NCBI GenBank assembly: GCA_946186665.1
Contig: CAMHOE010000011.1
Coordinates: 1 to 63,154 of the forward strand
DNA length: 63,154 nt
Source of the DNA: an uncultured Clostridia bacterium
GTDB taxonomy: Bacteria > Bacillota > Clostridia > Oscillospirales > Acutalibacteraceae
Direction of reading: 5' to 3'
The notes under the pieces were generated by a model that ran no database searches, was not told where the DNA came from, and saw only the letters and a program-made list of their open reading frames with translations. Position 1 is the first letter of the stretch. Every line of letters begins with the position of its first letter. Made by a program: the position numbers and the translations under genes. Below are positions 3,930 to 63,154 of this stretch, piece after piece.

Positions 3930-4160
3930 TCATTGTGAATATTTTTTATCAGCAATTCTGCTGCGGTCCGTAAAGAAAACGCTGTCATTCACTTCTCTGA
4001 CAACGCCCTCATTTTCAAGCGGAAAAGAAGAGTAGTTAATTTCGCTGTATTGCGGCAAAGAGGAGTCAAGATATTTCTGCACCATATTTTTCACTCCAAG
4101 CTCCTCACCGATAACTCTTCCTGCATCTGTCATTATTCTATCCTGGTCAAACTCATTCAT
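3930..4160 (-). CDS. Small hypothetical protein
   Basis: This 76-residue soluble protein (MNEFDQDRIMTDAGRVIGEELGVKNMV...) has no recognised family, signal peptide or membrane helix. An in-frame ATG at 4169 directly abuts the GAGGAG sequence. The ATG at 4160, 9 bases downstream of it, is therefore the better start. It lies between a convergent terminator and the start of a repeat-rich intergenic region. Coding status rests on the good ribosome site and normal composition only. Confidence 0.5.
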   Translation of the reverse strand: MNEFDQDRIMTDAGRVIGEELGVKNMVQKYLDSSLPQYSEINYSSFPLENEGVVREVNDSVFFTDRSRIADKKYSQ

Positions 4161-4249
4161 TATCCACATCTCCTCTTTTTATCATCTCAGCTGACCCTCT
4201 ACCATTATACATCATCCCCCCAAAAAATCAACCCCCGGCGCAGGCGGCA

Positions 4250-4412
4250 CACGGAAATCAAGTTTCTTCAAAAGAATATTAAAATTATGTCATTCTGAAC
4301 ACAGATGAATAATTTTCATCACAAAATTGGCATTATTGAAATAATTATTTGTTGTAATGGTCGTTAAAATAACCATTTCGCTGTTGATAATTTTTGAAAA
4401 TTGATTTCCGTG
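4250..4412. mobile_element. 163-bp terminal-inverted-repeat (MITE-like) element, type 1
   Basis: The ends are inverted repeats CACGGAAATCAA and TTGATTTCCGTG. The element is flanked by the 9-bp direct repeat CAGGCGGCA at 4241-4249 and 4413-4421. It has no coding capacity. Its CAC...GTG termini match those of the neighbouring 216-bp element but the interior differs. No second copy was seen in the window. Confidence 0.7.
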
Positions 4413-4421
4413 CAGGCGGCA

Positions 4422-4637
4422 CACGTCAATCTAATTTGGAAATTATTTTGTTACTTTTCAGAATCAACCTTCTTTCTTGAGCTTGCCGAAAGGGCTTAAA
4501 GTGCGTTTTTTCTAATTAATTAAACCTGACAGGCATAGTAAAGTGTGCATAAGTCACTCAAAGATTATTCGCTTAACGCTCAAAATGACATCTTATTAAA
4601 CTTTGTATCATTTTGATGTCTGAATTAGATTGACGTG
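4422..4637. mobile_element. 216-bp terminal-inverted-repeat (MITE-like) element, copy 1
   Basis: The ends are CACGTCAATCTAATT and AATTAGATTGACGTG, a perfect 15-bp inverted repeat. The flanks are CAGGCGGCA direct repeats at 4413-4421 and 4638-4646. The interior has no ORF. An identical body occurs in opposite orientation at 62574-62789. Two identical copies with different 9-10-bp target duplications are the hallmark of recent non-autonomous transposition. No transposase is in the window, so the mobilising family is unknown. Confidence 0.85.
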
Positions 4638-4646
4638 CAGGCGGCA

Positions 4647-5065
4647 AGCTGCCGCTCCCAATTCGCAGTGCAGAGCCTGCACTCCCAATTCGCGCTGGCG
4701 TTCGTACCCCAAGGGCACTTCCTTCGGGCGCTAACGCTCACTCTGATAGTATGACCGAACATCTTCCTGCCCGCGATTGACGGCACGCACCTGCCAGACA
4801 CTTGTCCCCATCCGCCGTCGCAGCCCTTAGGGGCTGCTGTTTCGGCTGGTCTATAAAAACAAAAAGTTTTTTCGCCTATTCAACTTAATGCGCCTGCATA
4901 TTCCAATGTTCAATGTGCAATGTGCAATGTTCAATGTTATGCTACAAAACTATAGACGTGAACCGCAATAGCCAAAGTGCTCTCTAAAGAGCACGACGCG
5001 GACGGGTCAGATAAATGTAGATGCGTTCTAAGTCGTCCAGTGCGGTCACGCACTCACTATTTCTG
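4647..5065 (-). repeat. Mosaic intergenic repeat, copy A
   Basis: Non-coding. On the minus strand it carries the modules shared with copies near 13.3, 25.7, 47.4, 59.3 and 62.8 kb: GCGTGACCGCACTGGACGAC, a GTGCTCTTTAGAGAGCAC-type palindrome, AGCAGCCCCTAAGGGCTGC, CCGTCAATCGCGGGCAGG and AGAGTGAGCGTTAGCGCCC. A short run of TGCAATGTTCAATG decamers lies at 4912-4938. The repeat ends about 30 bases before the aguA -10 box. This explains most of the 960-base gap ahead of aguA. Confidence 0.8.
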
Positions 5066-13271: not shown

Positions 13272-13735
13272 ACGCAGAGCCTGCGCTCCCGATTCGCGGT
13301 GCAGAGCCTGCTGTTTCGGCTGTTTTTTCCGGATATAAGTCTATTCCCCTACACAACTTTATGCGCCTGTACAGTGTAAAACTGTAGTTTATATCATACT
13401 TACTATAATTCGTTTTGCTTTAGCAAAACGTACCACAACTATTCACTATTCACTATTCACCATTCACTATTCACCATTCACTATTCACTTTTTCCGCGCC
13501 GACGCGGATGGGTTTATTAAAAAGTTGATGCGTTCCAAGTTATCCTGTGCAGTCACGCACCGGCTGTTTAATACGAGCATAAAGTTTCTCTCCCAACTCA
13601 ACTTTATGCGCCTGTACAGTGTAAAACTGTAGTTTATATTACACTTACTATATTTCGTTTTCGCCGTGCGAAAACGTACCACTATTATTCATTATTAAGT
13701 CTTAAGTTTTCAGTATTCATTAATTATTATGGCGC
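13272..13735 (-). repeat. Mosaic intergenic repeat, copy B, with decamer arrays
   Basis: Fills the 570-base gap between alr and the next gene. It contains GCAGAGCCTGCGCTCCCGATTCG, two copies of TGCGCCTGTACAGTGTAAAACTG followed by an ACTTACTATA motif and a GTTTTCGC...GCGAAAAC-like hairpin, a decamer-like array of CTATTCA/CCATTCA units at 13439-13490, and CATTATTAAGTCTTAAG near 13690-13727. The last segment recurs inside the 3' end of the HAD gene near 47170. No convincing ORF. Confidence 0.8.
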
Positions 13736-23993: not shown

Positions 23994-24077
23994 TGCCGGT
24001 AACCGGACTTGAACCGGTACGGATGTTACTCCGAGGGATTTTAAGTCCCTTGCGTCTGCCTATTTCGCCATACCGGC
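23994..24077 (-). tRNA. tRNA-Leu, anticodon UAA
   Basis: An 84-base class II tRNA. GCCGGTA acceptor pairs with TACCGGC, discriminator A; anticodon arm GGGACTTAAAATCCC with UAA; long variable arm; T arm ending GGTTCAAGTCC. CCA is not encoded. Confidence 0.95.
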
Positions 24078-25671: not shown

Positions 25672-25977
25672 GTGACCGGCGGGTGACCCCGCTGGACGAC
25701 TTAGAACGCATCTACTTTCGTCTGAGCCGACCGCATCGTGCTCCATAGGGGCACTTTGGCTAATACTGTTCACGTCTGTAGTTATATTGTGGAATTAAAG
25801 TGCATTTTCGCACAGCGAAAATGCAATAATTCTATCCTCCAAAAGCAAACCGCTCATAAGCGCACCGTAAGGGGCGTGTTGAGCGGAGAAACGCGGACAG
25901 GAAAAGTATATGCCATACAGAACAGAGTGAGCGCAGCGAACGCAAACGCGAACACGTGTCCAGCGTCACGCTTGCGC
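25672..25977 (+). repeat. Mosaic intergenic repeat, copy C
   Basis: Non-coding. It holds GCGTGACCGGCGGGTGACC, GACGACTTAGAACGCATC, a GCATTTTCGCACAGCGAAAATGC hairpin, AAGCGCACCGTAAGGGGCGTGTTGAGCGGAGAAACGCGGACAGGAA (shared with copy F near 63.0 kb) and GAGTGAGCGCAGCGAACG. It ends at the -35 box of the ilvB promoter. Confidence 0.8.
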
Positions 25978-26012: not shown

Positions 26013-26266
26013 GGAAAAGGCGAGGAACGGAAGAAGTAACCCTGTATACTGCTATACAGAGAGCCGCCGGTAGGTGTAAGACGGCAGCAGCACAGAGTGA
26101 AGTAGTCCGGGAGCTGTTCCGCTGAACTGCGTAAAAGTATGAAGTAAGCGGAAACGTGAGCCGAACGTTACATCGGTATATTGCTTTAATACTCAACGAA
26201 GAGTGGTACAGCGGAGTTTAGGCTTTTGAGCTTCGTCTCTTTGATACGGAAGAGATGAGGCTTTTT
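26013..26266 (+). promoter_or_regulatory. T-box leader, probably valine-specific, upstream of ilvB
   Basis: Stem I elements are visible: AAGTAA bulge near 26054, AGAGAGCCGCC, GGTAGGTGTAAG distal region, then GTGAAGTAGTCCGGGAGCTG, where the specifier loop should lie. The T-box core AGAGTGGTACAGCGG is at 26200-26214. A terminator follows at 26229-26262 (AGCTTCGTCTCTT/AAGAGATGAGGCT) with a T run. Uncharged cognate tRNA binding would favour antitermination and ilvBN expression. Candidate specifiers are GUA (26102-26104) or GUC (26105-26107); both are valine codons. The assignment is inferred by alignment to the family pattern from memory. Confidence 0.88.
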
Positions 26267-47397: not shown

Positions 47398-47866
47398 TGC
47401 GCGTGACCGGCGGGTGACCCCGCAGGACAAACTTAGAACGCATTTGCATTTGTCCGAACCGTCCGCATCACTCTCCCAAGGGAACAGAAATAGTGAATAA
47501 TGAATAGTGAATAACGAATAGTGAATAGTTGCGGTTTGTTTTCACTAAAGTGAAAACAATCATAGTAAGTATAATAAAAAACTACAACTTCAAACGGTAC
47601 AGGCGCATATAGTTGAGTTGTTGAAAGAACTTTTTGTTCGTAGAGAATAGCCGAAACAGCAGCCCTAAGGCTGCGCCGGCGGATGGAGATGGGTGTCTGC
47701 CGGTTCTGCGCCGTCAATCGCGGACAGGAAAAGTTTCGGTCATATTATCAGAGTGAGCGTTAGCGCCCGAAGGAAGTGCCCTTGGGGTACGAACGTCAGC
47801 ACGAATTGAGACCGGCAGCTTGCCGGGCGAATCGGGCGCGCAAGCCTTGCACCGGCGGCTGTGAGT
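47398..47866 (+). repeat. Mosaic intergenic repeat, copy D, running into queH
   Basis: Near-complete copy: GCGCGTGACCGGCGGGTGACC, a GAATAGTGAATAGTG decamer array, GTTTTCACTAAAGTGAAAAC hairpin, ATAGTAAGTATAATAAAAAACT, CGGTACAGGCGCATA, AGCCGAAACAGCAGCCCTAAGGCTGC, CGTCAATCGCGGACAGGAA and AGAGTGAGCGTTAGCGCCCG with GGAAGTGCCCTTGGGGTACG. The last 150 bases overlap the 3' coding end of queH. Confidence 0.85.
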
Positions 47867-58879: not shown

Positions 58880-59105
58880 TATCCATAGCTTATAGTCGGT
58901 AAGCATCATGTTGGTTTAAAGTTCAAATCCCAAAGCTCAAAGAATTTGCGGCGGAAGATATCAGCTTTGGACCTTGTACTCTGGACTTACAATAGCGAAA
59001 TACTATATGTGTTTAAACCTGTTATGAGCAGCCAATGCGCGGCAAAAAAAATCCGCACCCGACAAAAGCCGAGCGCGAATCGTCCCGTGTGGTCACACAC
59101 CGTAA

Positions 59106-59187
59106 TGCGGGTGACAGGACTTGAACCTGCACACCATAGGGCACAAGAACCTAAATCTTGCGTGTCTGCCAATTTCACCACACCCGC
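59106..59187 (-). tRNA. tRNA-Leu, anticodon UAG
   Basis: An 82-base class II tRNA: GCGGGTG acceptor with CACCCGC, discriminator A; anticodon arm CAAGATTTAGGTTCTTG with UAG; T arm GGTTCAAGTCC. CCA is not encoded. The flanks to either side are mosaic-repeat-like. Confidence 0.95.
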
Positions 59188-59263
59188 AAATATTAACAAC
59201 AAACCTATTATACATAAATCCAAGCCCAATGTCAATCAGATTTTTTTACCCATAGAAACCAAC

Positions 59264-59652
59264 ACGGGTGACCCCGCTGGACAACTTAACAACGTATCAG
59301 CTTTTGATATAACCGTCCGCGTCGTGCGGAAAAAGTGAATAGTGAATAGTTGTGGTACGTTTTCGCTTATGCGAAAACAAATTATAGTAAGTATAATAAA
59401 AACTACAGCTTTACACTGTATAGGCGCATAAAGTCGAGCAGGAGAAGAAACTATATGTCCATAAGAAACAGCCGAAACAGCAGCCCCTCAGGGCTGCGCC
59501 GGCGGATGGGAAATATTGTCTGCCAAGTCTGCGCCGTCAATCGCGGACAATGAATGTTCGATCAGGATGTCAGAGTGAGCGTTAGCGCCCGAAGGAAGTG
59601 CCCTTGGGGTACGAACGCCGCCGCGAATCGGGTGCGCAGGCTCTGCGCCCGA
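59264..59652 (+). repeat. Mosaic intergenic repeat, copy E
   Basis: CGGGTGACCCCGCTGGACAAC, GAATAGTGAATAGTTGTGG, GTTTTCGCTTATGCGAAAAC hairpin, TATAGTAAGTATAATAAAAACT, GTATAGGCGCATAAAG, AGCCGAAACAGCAGCCCCTCAGGGCTGC, CGTCAATCGCGGACAA and GAGTGAGCGTTAGCGCCC. It ends 4 bases before the -35 box of the HPr gene. Confidence 0.85.
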
Positions 59653-62418: not shown

Positions 62419-62573
62419 CTTTCAAGCTTCACCATTCCCTTATTATATCTGTATAAACACATCCGCAAGCTGTCAGGACAAAAAACAATAAACAAATCGT
62501 CCACGACAAAAAACGACAATCGTCACCAATAATATTATACAAAACAATCTGCCACCGTTTCGCCACCGGTGCG

Positions 62574-62789
62574 CACGTCAATCTAATTCAGACATCAAAA
62601 TGATACAAAGTTTAATAAGATGTCATTTTGAGCGTTAAGCGAATAATCTTTGAGTGACTTATGCACACTTTACTATGCCTGTCAGGTTTAATTAATTAGA
62701 AAAAACGCACTTTAAGCCCTTTCGGCAAGCTCAAGAAAGAAGGTTGATTCTGAAAAGTAACAAAATAATTTCCAAATTAGATTGACGTA
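62574..62789. mobile_element. 216-bp terminal-inverted-repeat (MITE-like) element, copy 2
   Basis: The body is an exact reverse complement of 4422-4637 (212-bp core identical by eye). The flanks are the 10-bp direct repeat CACCGGTGCG at 62564-62573 and 62790-62799, unrelated to the flank of copy 1. Independent target duplication supports transposition and not segmental duplication. Confidence 0.88.
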
Positions 62790-62799
62790 CACCGGTGCG

Positions 62800-63154
62800 T
62801 GACCGCACTGGACAACTTAACAACGGTGCGTGACCGCACTGGACAACTTAACAGCTTCTGATTGAACCATCTGCGTCGGTGCGCGACCGCACTGGACGAC
62901 TTAACAACGCATCAGCTTCTGATTGAACCATCTGCGTCGTGCTCTTCAGAGAGCACTTAGGCTATTATTGTACGCGTCTACAACTGTCCTCCAAAACTAA
63001 CCCCGCCCATAAGCGCACCGTAAGGGGCGTGTTGGGCGGAGAAACGCGGACAGGAAGAGTTTCGGTCTGAATATCAGAGTGAGCTTCAGCGAACGGCAAC
63101 GCGAATCGGGAGCGCAGGCTCTGCGCCGCGAATCGGGAGCGCAGGCTCTGCGCC
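62800..63154 (+). repeat. Mosaic intergenic repeat, copy F, reaching the window end
   Basis: Three head-to-tail units of GTGCG(T/C)GACCGCACTGGAC(A/G)ACTTAACA with CTTCTGATTGAACCATCTGC between, a GTGCTCTTCAGAGAGCAC palindrome, GCGCACCGTAAGGGGCGTG and AACGCGGACAGGAA shared with copy C, and at the very end two tandem GCGAATCGGGAGCGCAGGCTCTGCGCC units. It may continue outside the window. Confidence 0.85.

Follow-up and report, generated by a model that had tools for sequence, protein, structure and literature searches.

Insertions of a short clostridial transposable element and its ISAs1-family relatives mostly lie at a fixed distance upstream of promoter-like sequences

The window, by which we mean the whole 63,154-nucleotide stretch that was analysed, carries a 216-bp element (element A) near each end, in opposite orientations, and a second, 163-bp element (element B) directly beside the first copy. 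The features of these two sites are as follows.

3930..4169, minus strand: 79-aa open reading frame (ORF) downstream of the promoter on the B side; small, and may or may not be a gene
4204..4209, minus strand: -10 hexamer TATAAT, spacer 16 bp
4226..4231, minus strand: -35 hexamer TTGATT (4/6), 9 bp past the duplication
4241..4249: left duplication of element B, the promoter-proximal copy of CAGGCGGCA
4250..4412, plus strand: element B, a 163-bp MITE with ends CACGGAAATCAAGTTT (left) and CACGGAAATCAATTTT (right, read inward)
4413..4421: 9-bp target duplication to the left of A copy 1, CAGGCGGCA, common to it and the right side of element B
4422..4637, plus strand: element A copy 1, a 216-bp MITE with ends CACGTCAATCTAATT
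4638..4646: 9-bp target duplication to the right of A copy 1, CAGGCGGCA
62564..62573: left 10-bp target duplication of A copy 2, CACCGGTGCG
62574..62789, minus strand: element A copy 2 in inverted orientation, with A in place of G as the terminal base on the right
62790..62799: right 10-bp target duplication of A copy 2, CACCGGTGCG
62809..62814, plus strand: TGGACA (5/6 to TTGACA) in the right flank of A copy 2 (L021), 9 bp past the duplication, with no -10 box

A sequence-only reading of the window had described the A copies as exact reverse complements. The 216-bp inverted copies are where it placed them, and a repeat search in the window returned arms at 4423-4638 and 62573-62788 (216 nt, 100% complementary); at the true boundaries (4422-4637 and 62574-62789, a one-base shift), however, one terminal base differs (GATTGACGTG vs GATTGACGTA). 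Both copies have the 15-bp inverted ends that it reported (CACGTCAATCTAATT), and each has a flanking duplication of its own, 9 bp for the first (CAGGCGGCA) and 10 bp for the second (CACCGGTGCG). CAGGCGGCA is present three times rather than twice, one duplication being common to A copy 1 and to element B (4250-4412) on its left. The same reading had proposed that the pair could flip the whole 58-kb segment between them by recombination. Such an inversion finds no support in this pair: each copy's own duplication still matches on both sides, so the flanks have not been exchanged.

Other repeats and RNA features occur in the window. GC-rich intergenic mosaic repeats (GCGAATCGGGAGCGCAGGCTCTGCGCC and relatives) lie at 4643-4825, 13273-13311, 47669-47811, 59554-59649 and 63090-63154, and such repeats also adjoin many insertions. 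Three CGGTGCGTGACCGCACTGGACAACTTAACAACG units (94-100% alike) fill 62793-62909, directly to the right of A copy 2, with related units at 25677, 47408 and 59262. Positions 1-72 form a perfect 18-bp tandem repeat, a 300-bp direct repeat (98%) spans 667-966 and 1171-1470, a T-box leader lies at 26014-26243 (Rfam RF00230, 108 bits), and tRNA-Leu genes are at 23994-24077 and 59105-59188.

The sequence-only reading had proposed searching the genome and its relatives for the 216-bp body. The window's draft genome (2.55 Mb, 101 contigs) gave 27 match rows: 24 full copies, two copies cut at contig ends, and one 26-bp match that is mostly flanking repeat and not element. The copy number is at least 24, as 40 of the 60 first-look candidates were scored. 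Nineteen full copies have no mismatch to the window copy and five have one, a near-identity that short-read assembly may have inflated somewhat. Target duplications of 9 or 10 bp flank 23 of the 24, and no ORF of 100 aa or more lies inside the 216 bp. Among 99 genomes (our own and 98 relatives), five matched at E 0.001: our own, two with real A copies (G006 at 91-94% identity; G047 at 98-99%, one of its two copies being partial), and two others with 29-bp matches only. Element A is thus a young, abundant MITE, as the earlier proposal of a young non-autonomous transposable element had it. An assembly artefact, which that proposal had allowed for, is unlikely for copies other than L008, because misjoined flanks would give unmatched duplications and these match. 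L008 itself (1501-1716; G000:C8:5708-5923) is the sole copy of the 24 without a target duplication and has a promoter on both sides; to judge from this arrangement, it may reflect recombination between two A insertions, unless the contig was misjoined.

The ISAs1 family of insertion sequences (IS) has terminal inverted repeats and makes target duplications of 8-10 bp. No known IS family had seemed clear from the ends of element A, but these ends are in fact those of an ISAs1-family IS, and looking for an IS with such ends, as had been advised, led to L077 in a related MAG, a 1229-bp element that has CACGTCAATCTAATT at both ends and encodes a 370-aa transposase without interruption. The contig stops at the last base of the right end, and the duplication falls outside view. 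Because an ISAs1-family IS with the same ends exists, whole in this related MAG, we class A as a MITE. Within our own genome, single ends with 0-1 mismatch to the A end, mostly at or near contig edges, run into other sequence. One 109-bp end piece on contig C36, found in 9 of 64 genus genomes, is 96% identical over 102 bp to a G048 contig. In G048, as in G033, the piece forms the 3' end of a gene for an ISAs1-family transposase, and the reading frame is interrupted in both. A search of the 101 contigs for an ISAs1 transposase gave no match, only ends at or near contig edges. This would be the normal outcome if short-read assembly had merged long copies of identical sequence, and the genome's own ISAs1 IS was probably lost in that way.

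The transposases scored well above the 70-bit cut-off of the ISAs1 model NF033564 (L077 260.7, L140 284.9, L122 410.8, L180 385.8, L296 348.3 and L057 239.1 bits), and the Pfam domains found in five of five transposases were PF01609 and PF13808 only, which does not place them among Mutator-type enzymes. Target duplications of 9-10 bp flank the ISAs1 elements L140, L180, L181, L296 and those of G349. The IS end counts exclude L061-L064 and L075 (no matching end or short partial matches), and the end analysis covers the elements other than G406, G424, G314, further partial ISAs1 matches and L079. A viral scan with the R. albus transposase found no relative.

Element B adjoins A copy 1 through the common target duplication. 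Its ends resemble those of an ISAs1 IS on a plasmid of R. albus 7 (L140, with a 9-bp target duplication), the right end being identical over 16 bp and the left over 12 bp. Our genome contains two full copies of B and nine short end matches, and the exact 16-bp B end occurs in 36 of 64 genus genomes; the reversed pattern, used as a control, gave no match in any of the 64.

The main feature of these insertions, absent from the sequence-only reading, is their fixed position relative to a promoter. When the flanks of the 24 A copies were read outward, TTGACA-like hexamers were seen to begin 19 bp outside one of the ends, with a -10 box after them. As this pattern had been found by looking, other insertions were examined under a strict rule (a minimum of 4/6 for each box and of 9 for their sum, with a spacer of 16-18). 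Both ends were found for 59 insertions; 47 of these carry a duplication of 8 bp or more, and the other 12 were dropped (11 B-type and L008). A promoter-like TTGACA-N16-18-TATAAT stands exactly 9 bp past the duplication in 33 of the 47, and at any other offset from -5 to +31 in at most 2. By group, the 33 comprise 15/23 A copies in our genome, 0/3 A copies in relatives, 12/12 B elements in relatives (from the same stretches as the 72-end test below), the one B in the window (1/1), G349 (3/5), R. albus (1/1) and viral elements (1/2). TTG occupies the position 9 bp past the duplication in 37 of 47 and any other offset in at most 5; the spacer is 17 in 28 of the 33 strict promoters. The duplication is 9 bp long in 21 insertions and 10 bp long in 26, which puts the element end at 18 or 19, respectively. 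Because the end shifts with duplication length, the promoter-near cut is the fixed one.

Under a looser rule, chosen after the data were known, a promoter side can be assigned to 19 of the 24 A copies, 13 of them presenting one end to it and 6 the other, and an ORF of at least 60 aa starts within 300 bp downstream for 18 of these 19. Such closeness to ORF starts, the least harmful place, is what random insertion would leave if purifying selection then cleared genes and core promoters. This account without targeting is very improbable, as intergenic DNA far from promoters is just as harmless, and a precision of one base, with 33 of 47 at one offset and at most 2 at any other, goes beyond selection.

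Fourteen of the 47 insertions do not fit the strict rule. In three (L001, L003, L036) a B-type end lies directly beside the element, with a promoter beyond that end for L001 alone. Four (L002, L011, L039, L126) have TTG in place and a -10 of 5/6 or 6/6 with a -35 that is too weak; in two (L009, L181) the promoter is one base nearer; and five (L004, L014, L021, L033, L122) are weak or have no -10. Copy 2 of the window, L021, is therefore itself an exception to the promoter rule. Three A copies of relatives that were dropped when their ends mismatched the search (L029, L030, L038) have promoters at 19, 19 and 16.

Longer IS and B-type ends were also considered. For longer IS in our own and four related genomes, a promoter at offset 17-19 was read by eye beside 13 of 15 three-prime ends (all but L069 and L071) and beside none of three five-prime ends (L047, L048, L077). 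A test set was then picked after the rule had been fixed: 59 stretches with B-type ends from three related genomes, most of those listed, one of which (L188) had been examined before the rule test. Its 72 usable B-type ends gave 18 promoters at offsets 18-20 (16 at 18 and 2 at 19), with 0.87 expected from other offsets. The ceiling is about half of the ends, because each insertion has two ends and one promoter side.

One solo ISAs1 3' end (L049, G000:C39, 4400-5390) is located on the 5' side of a CRISPR leader whose array has 28-nt repeats, presumably of a type I-E-like system; its outer side carries TTGACA-17-TATAAT at offset 19.

The flanks contain more than a -35 hexamer. In 40 aligned flanks, TG precedes the -10 box (T 60%, G 58%), as in extended -10 promoters, and of 28 insertion-side -35 hexamers that score at least 5/6, 25 are followed by a -10 that also reaches 5/6; the background rate after such hexamers is 40/825 for the whole window and 27/185 outside the main ORFs (p 4e-15). 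These numbers bear on what is recognised. The transposase could read the -35 DNA hexamer itself, leaving RNA polymerase uninvolved: TTG is at the rule position in 37 of 47 insertions, L014 (TTGACA) and L021 (TGGACA) have a -35-like hexamer in place with a poor or absent -10, and the element ends contain GATTGACGTG and carry TTGAC. We consider this unlikely, though it carries some weight. A hexamer reader would not account for the excess of good -10 boxes over the rate elsewhere between window ORFs, for the 17-bp spacer in 28 of 33, or for sites used despite a -35 that is poor beyond TTG and is joined to a good -10 (L002, L011, L126); the TTGAC of the element ends lies 3 bp inside the cut and in the opposite direction, which is a different geometry. 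On our reading, the flanking sequences would be active promoters, and the landmark would be the promoter-bound RNA polymerase holoenzyme (sigma region 4 or alpha-CTD) and not promoter DNA alone.

One promoter occurs both with and without element A. The copy L024 lies upstream of a predicted gene for ribosomal protein L21, taken to be rplU from its first residues. Among 29 loci of relatives (L250-L278), 28 have the orthologous rplU promoter, none with an A end within 70 bp upstream; the remaining locus, L261, is a match to another of the five sites. A B-type end lies upstream of the promoter in three of the 28, at 18 bp in G048, 17 bp in G051 and 6 bp in G041 (by eye), and the last, 6 bp from the -35, is off the rule. 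Because relatives free of A and others with B-type ends share this promoter, it predates the insertion and has been used more than once. It could otherwise be argued that A is no transposon but a structural or regulatory repeat that travels with a promoter as a cassette, given that A copies adjoin promoters and are strongly conserved in sequence. That is hardly credible: 23 of 24 copies are flanked by duplications made of target DNA, the promoters beside them differ in sequence, and the rplU promoter of relatives stands without the element.

Repeated use of one site is also seen in the stack of the window, which runs promoter - CAGGCGGCA - B - CAGGCGGCA - A - CAGGCGGCA. A and B-like ends adjoin as well in L003, L004, L005, L016 and a relative's L036; the promoter-nearest element is A in L005 and L016 and B in the window. 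The site is reusable because an insertion leaves the promoter and one duplication copy whole, and the promoter-nearest element of a stack should be the youngest.

The ends, the duplications, the fixed distance, the joint presence of -10 and -35 and the recurrence at one orthologous promoter are features of the sequences themselves. With a high degree of confidence, we propose that A and B, as MITEs, are mobilised in trans by ISAs1 transposases and joined at a fixed site upstream of sigma-A type promoters. Of the two cuts made by the transposase, the promoter-proximal one would fall 9 bp upstream of a -35 hexamer belonging to a housekeeping (sigma-A type) promoter and the other 9 or 10 bp further up, which would put the element end 18 or 19 bp upstream of the -35, at about -55, the upstream edge of RNA polymerase. 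The -35, the -10 and native DNA to about -54 would be retained, so that the gene keeps its core promoter. A promoter left in this state would be open to further insertion, and the resulting stacks would read promoter - duplication - element - duplication - element - duplication. These observations suggest that A and its parent IS are guided to a gene-sparing landing site by the promoter, or by the transcription machinery bound there.

ISAs1 elements outside the genus were compared in the same way. Of those from Bacillota or hosts not known, 6 of 9 fit the rule: R. albus 1/1, G349 (another class of the same phylum) 3/5, viral contigs of unknown host 1/2 and a satellite phage of S. pyogenes 1/1. 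A fourth G349 copy has TTGTAT and a -10 of 5/6 at the right place, the second viral copy has its promoter one base nearer, and the S. pyogenes phage copy (L296) carries TGGTCA-17-TATAAT at the rule position. By contrast, none of 10 proteobacterial or cyanobacterial ISAs1 elements with clear ends and duplications fit (L141, L144, L145, L146, L244, L246, L248, L288, L293, L294; p about 0.003 for 6/9 vs 0/10), a contrast that rests on single plasmid copies. Thirteen single copies had no clean ends (L129, L142, L143, L147, L149, L241, L242, L243, L245, L285, L289, L291, L292), and four more were dropped: L290 for mirror-image flanks, L148 and L247 for poor ends, and L295 as the same site as L244. 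Promoter targeting thus appears to be a property of some ISAs1 lineages or of their hosts; a transposase tree, built to see if the promoter-targeting elements group in a single clade, left 17 of its 23 inner branches open. We regard it as an even question whether Bacillota ISAs1 transposases, independently of the Mutator-like elements, gained an integration measured from the holoenzyme, 9 bp upstream of the -35, which would make promoters reusable and MITE stacks akin to dated records. Elements of two further genomes are outside all counts: for a DDE element of G211 (L130-L134), with a transposase below the ISAs1 cut-off and 8-bp duplications, a promoter lies at 17 (9 bp past the duplication) in 2 of 5 by eye, and the G184 elements showed no clear promoter at the rule position, again by eye.

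Placement of this kind bears on regulation, as the elements replace the DNA upstream of about -55, the activator-binding zone, at many promoters including that of rplU. Many natural insertions are on hand for testing what the transposase recognises, and the elements could help promoter mapping in uncultured bacteria.

IS1548 of streptococci, which we take to belong to the ISAs1 family, offers a point of comparison, and a 2013 study on its insertion targets may already describe part of the specificity. The published IS1548 cases resemble ours in being promoter-near and, in the accessible text of the reports, are single loci: a copy 9 bp upstream of the putative lmb promoter, in a region termed a hot spot (PMC2875397), one in the promoter region of scl1, with an activator site 38 bp downstream of it (PMC5005324), and a copy between folK and murB (PMC8744998). 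A large IS survey, as far as its accessible text goes, singles out ISLre2 and ISKra4, and not ISAs1, with regard to gene distance, and reports an excess of ISAs1 between convergent genes (PMC9208149). Promoter targeting as an ISAs1 property is not described in the accessible parts of PMC3942029, PMC3281130, PMC9208149, PMC5756416, PMC8744998, PMC2875397 and PMC5005324.

Like other bacterial MITEs, A and B are short, have no transposase gene, and show the ends of an autonomous IS, target duplications and many near-identical copies; they differ from them in their exact placement relative to promoters and in the stacking of one MITE family with a second through a common duplication. Yeast retrotransposons are well known for precise integration into safe sites under the guidance of the transcription machinery, and the bacterial cases known to us are a few Mutator-like elements. 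According to the accessible text of Guerillot et al. 2014, insertion 15-17 bp upstream of the -35 is the habit of TnGBS and its relatives, ISLre2 among them, and of some members of the ISKra4 group, all of them Mutator-like; drawing on the yeast Ty3 case, the authors propose that the transposase touches the polymerase initiation complex (PMC3942029). ISAs1 is not mentioned in the main text of that paper. Promoter-upstream insertion is therefore already published for Mutator-type transposases, and what appears to be new here is its occurrence in ISAs1. That an unrelated second family of transposases shares the habit suggests that both have converged on the promoter as a refuge. Like the published TnGBS, ISLre2 and ISKra4 insertions, as far as these are described in that text, those of A and ISAs1 lie at a set distance upstream of the -35 of a sigma-A promoter. 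The transposase is of the ISAs1 type here (PF01609 + PF13808) and of the Mutator type there; the distance is 18-19 bp, with 9-10 bp duplications, as against 15-17 bp in the accessible account; and here it is set from the promoter-proximal cut, with MITEs stacking at one site.
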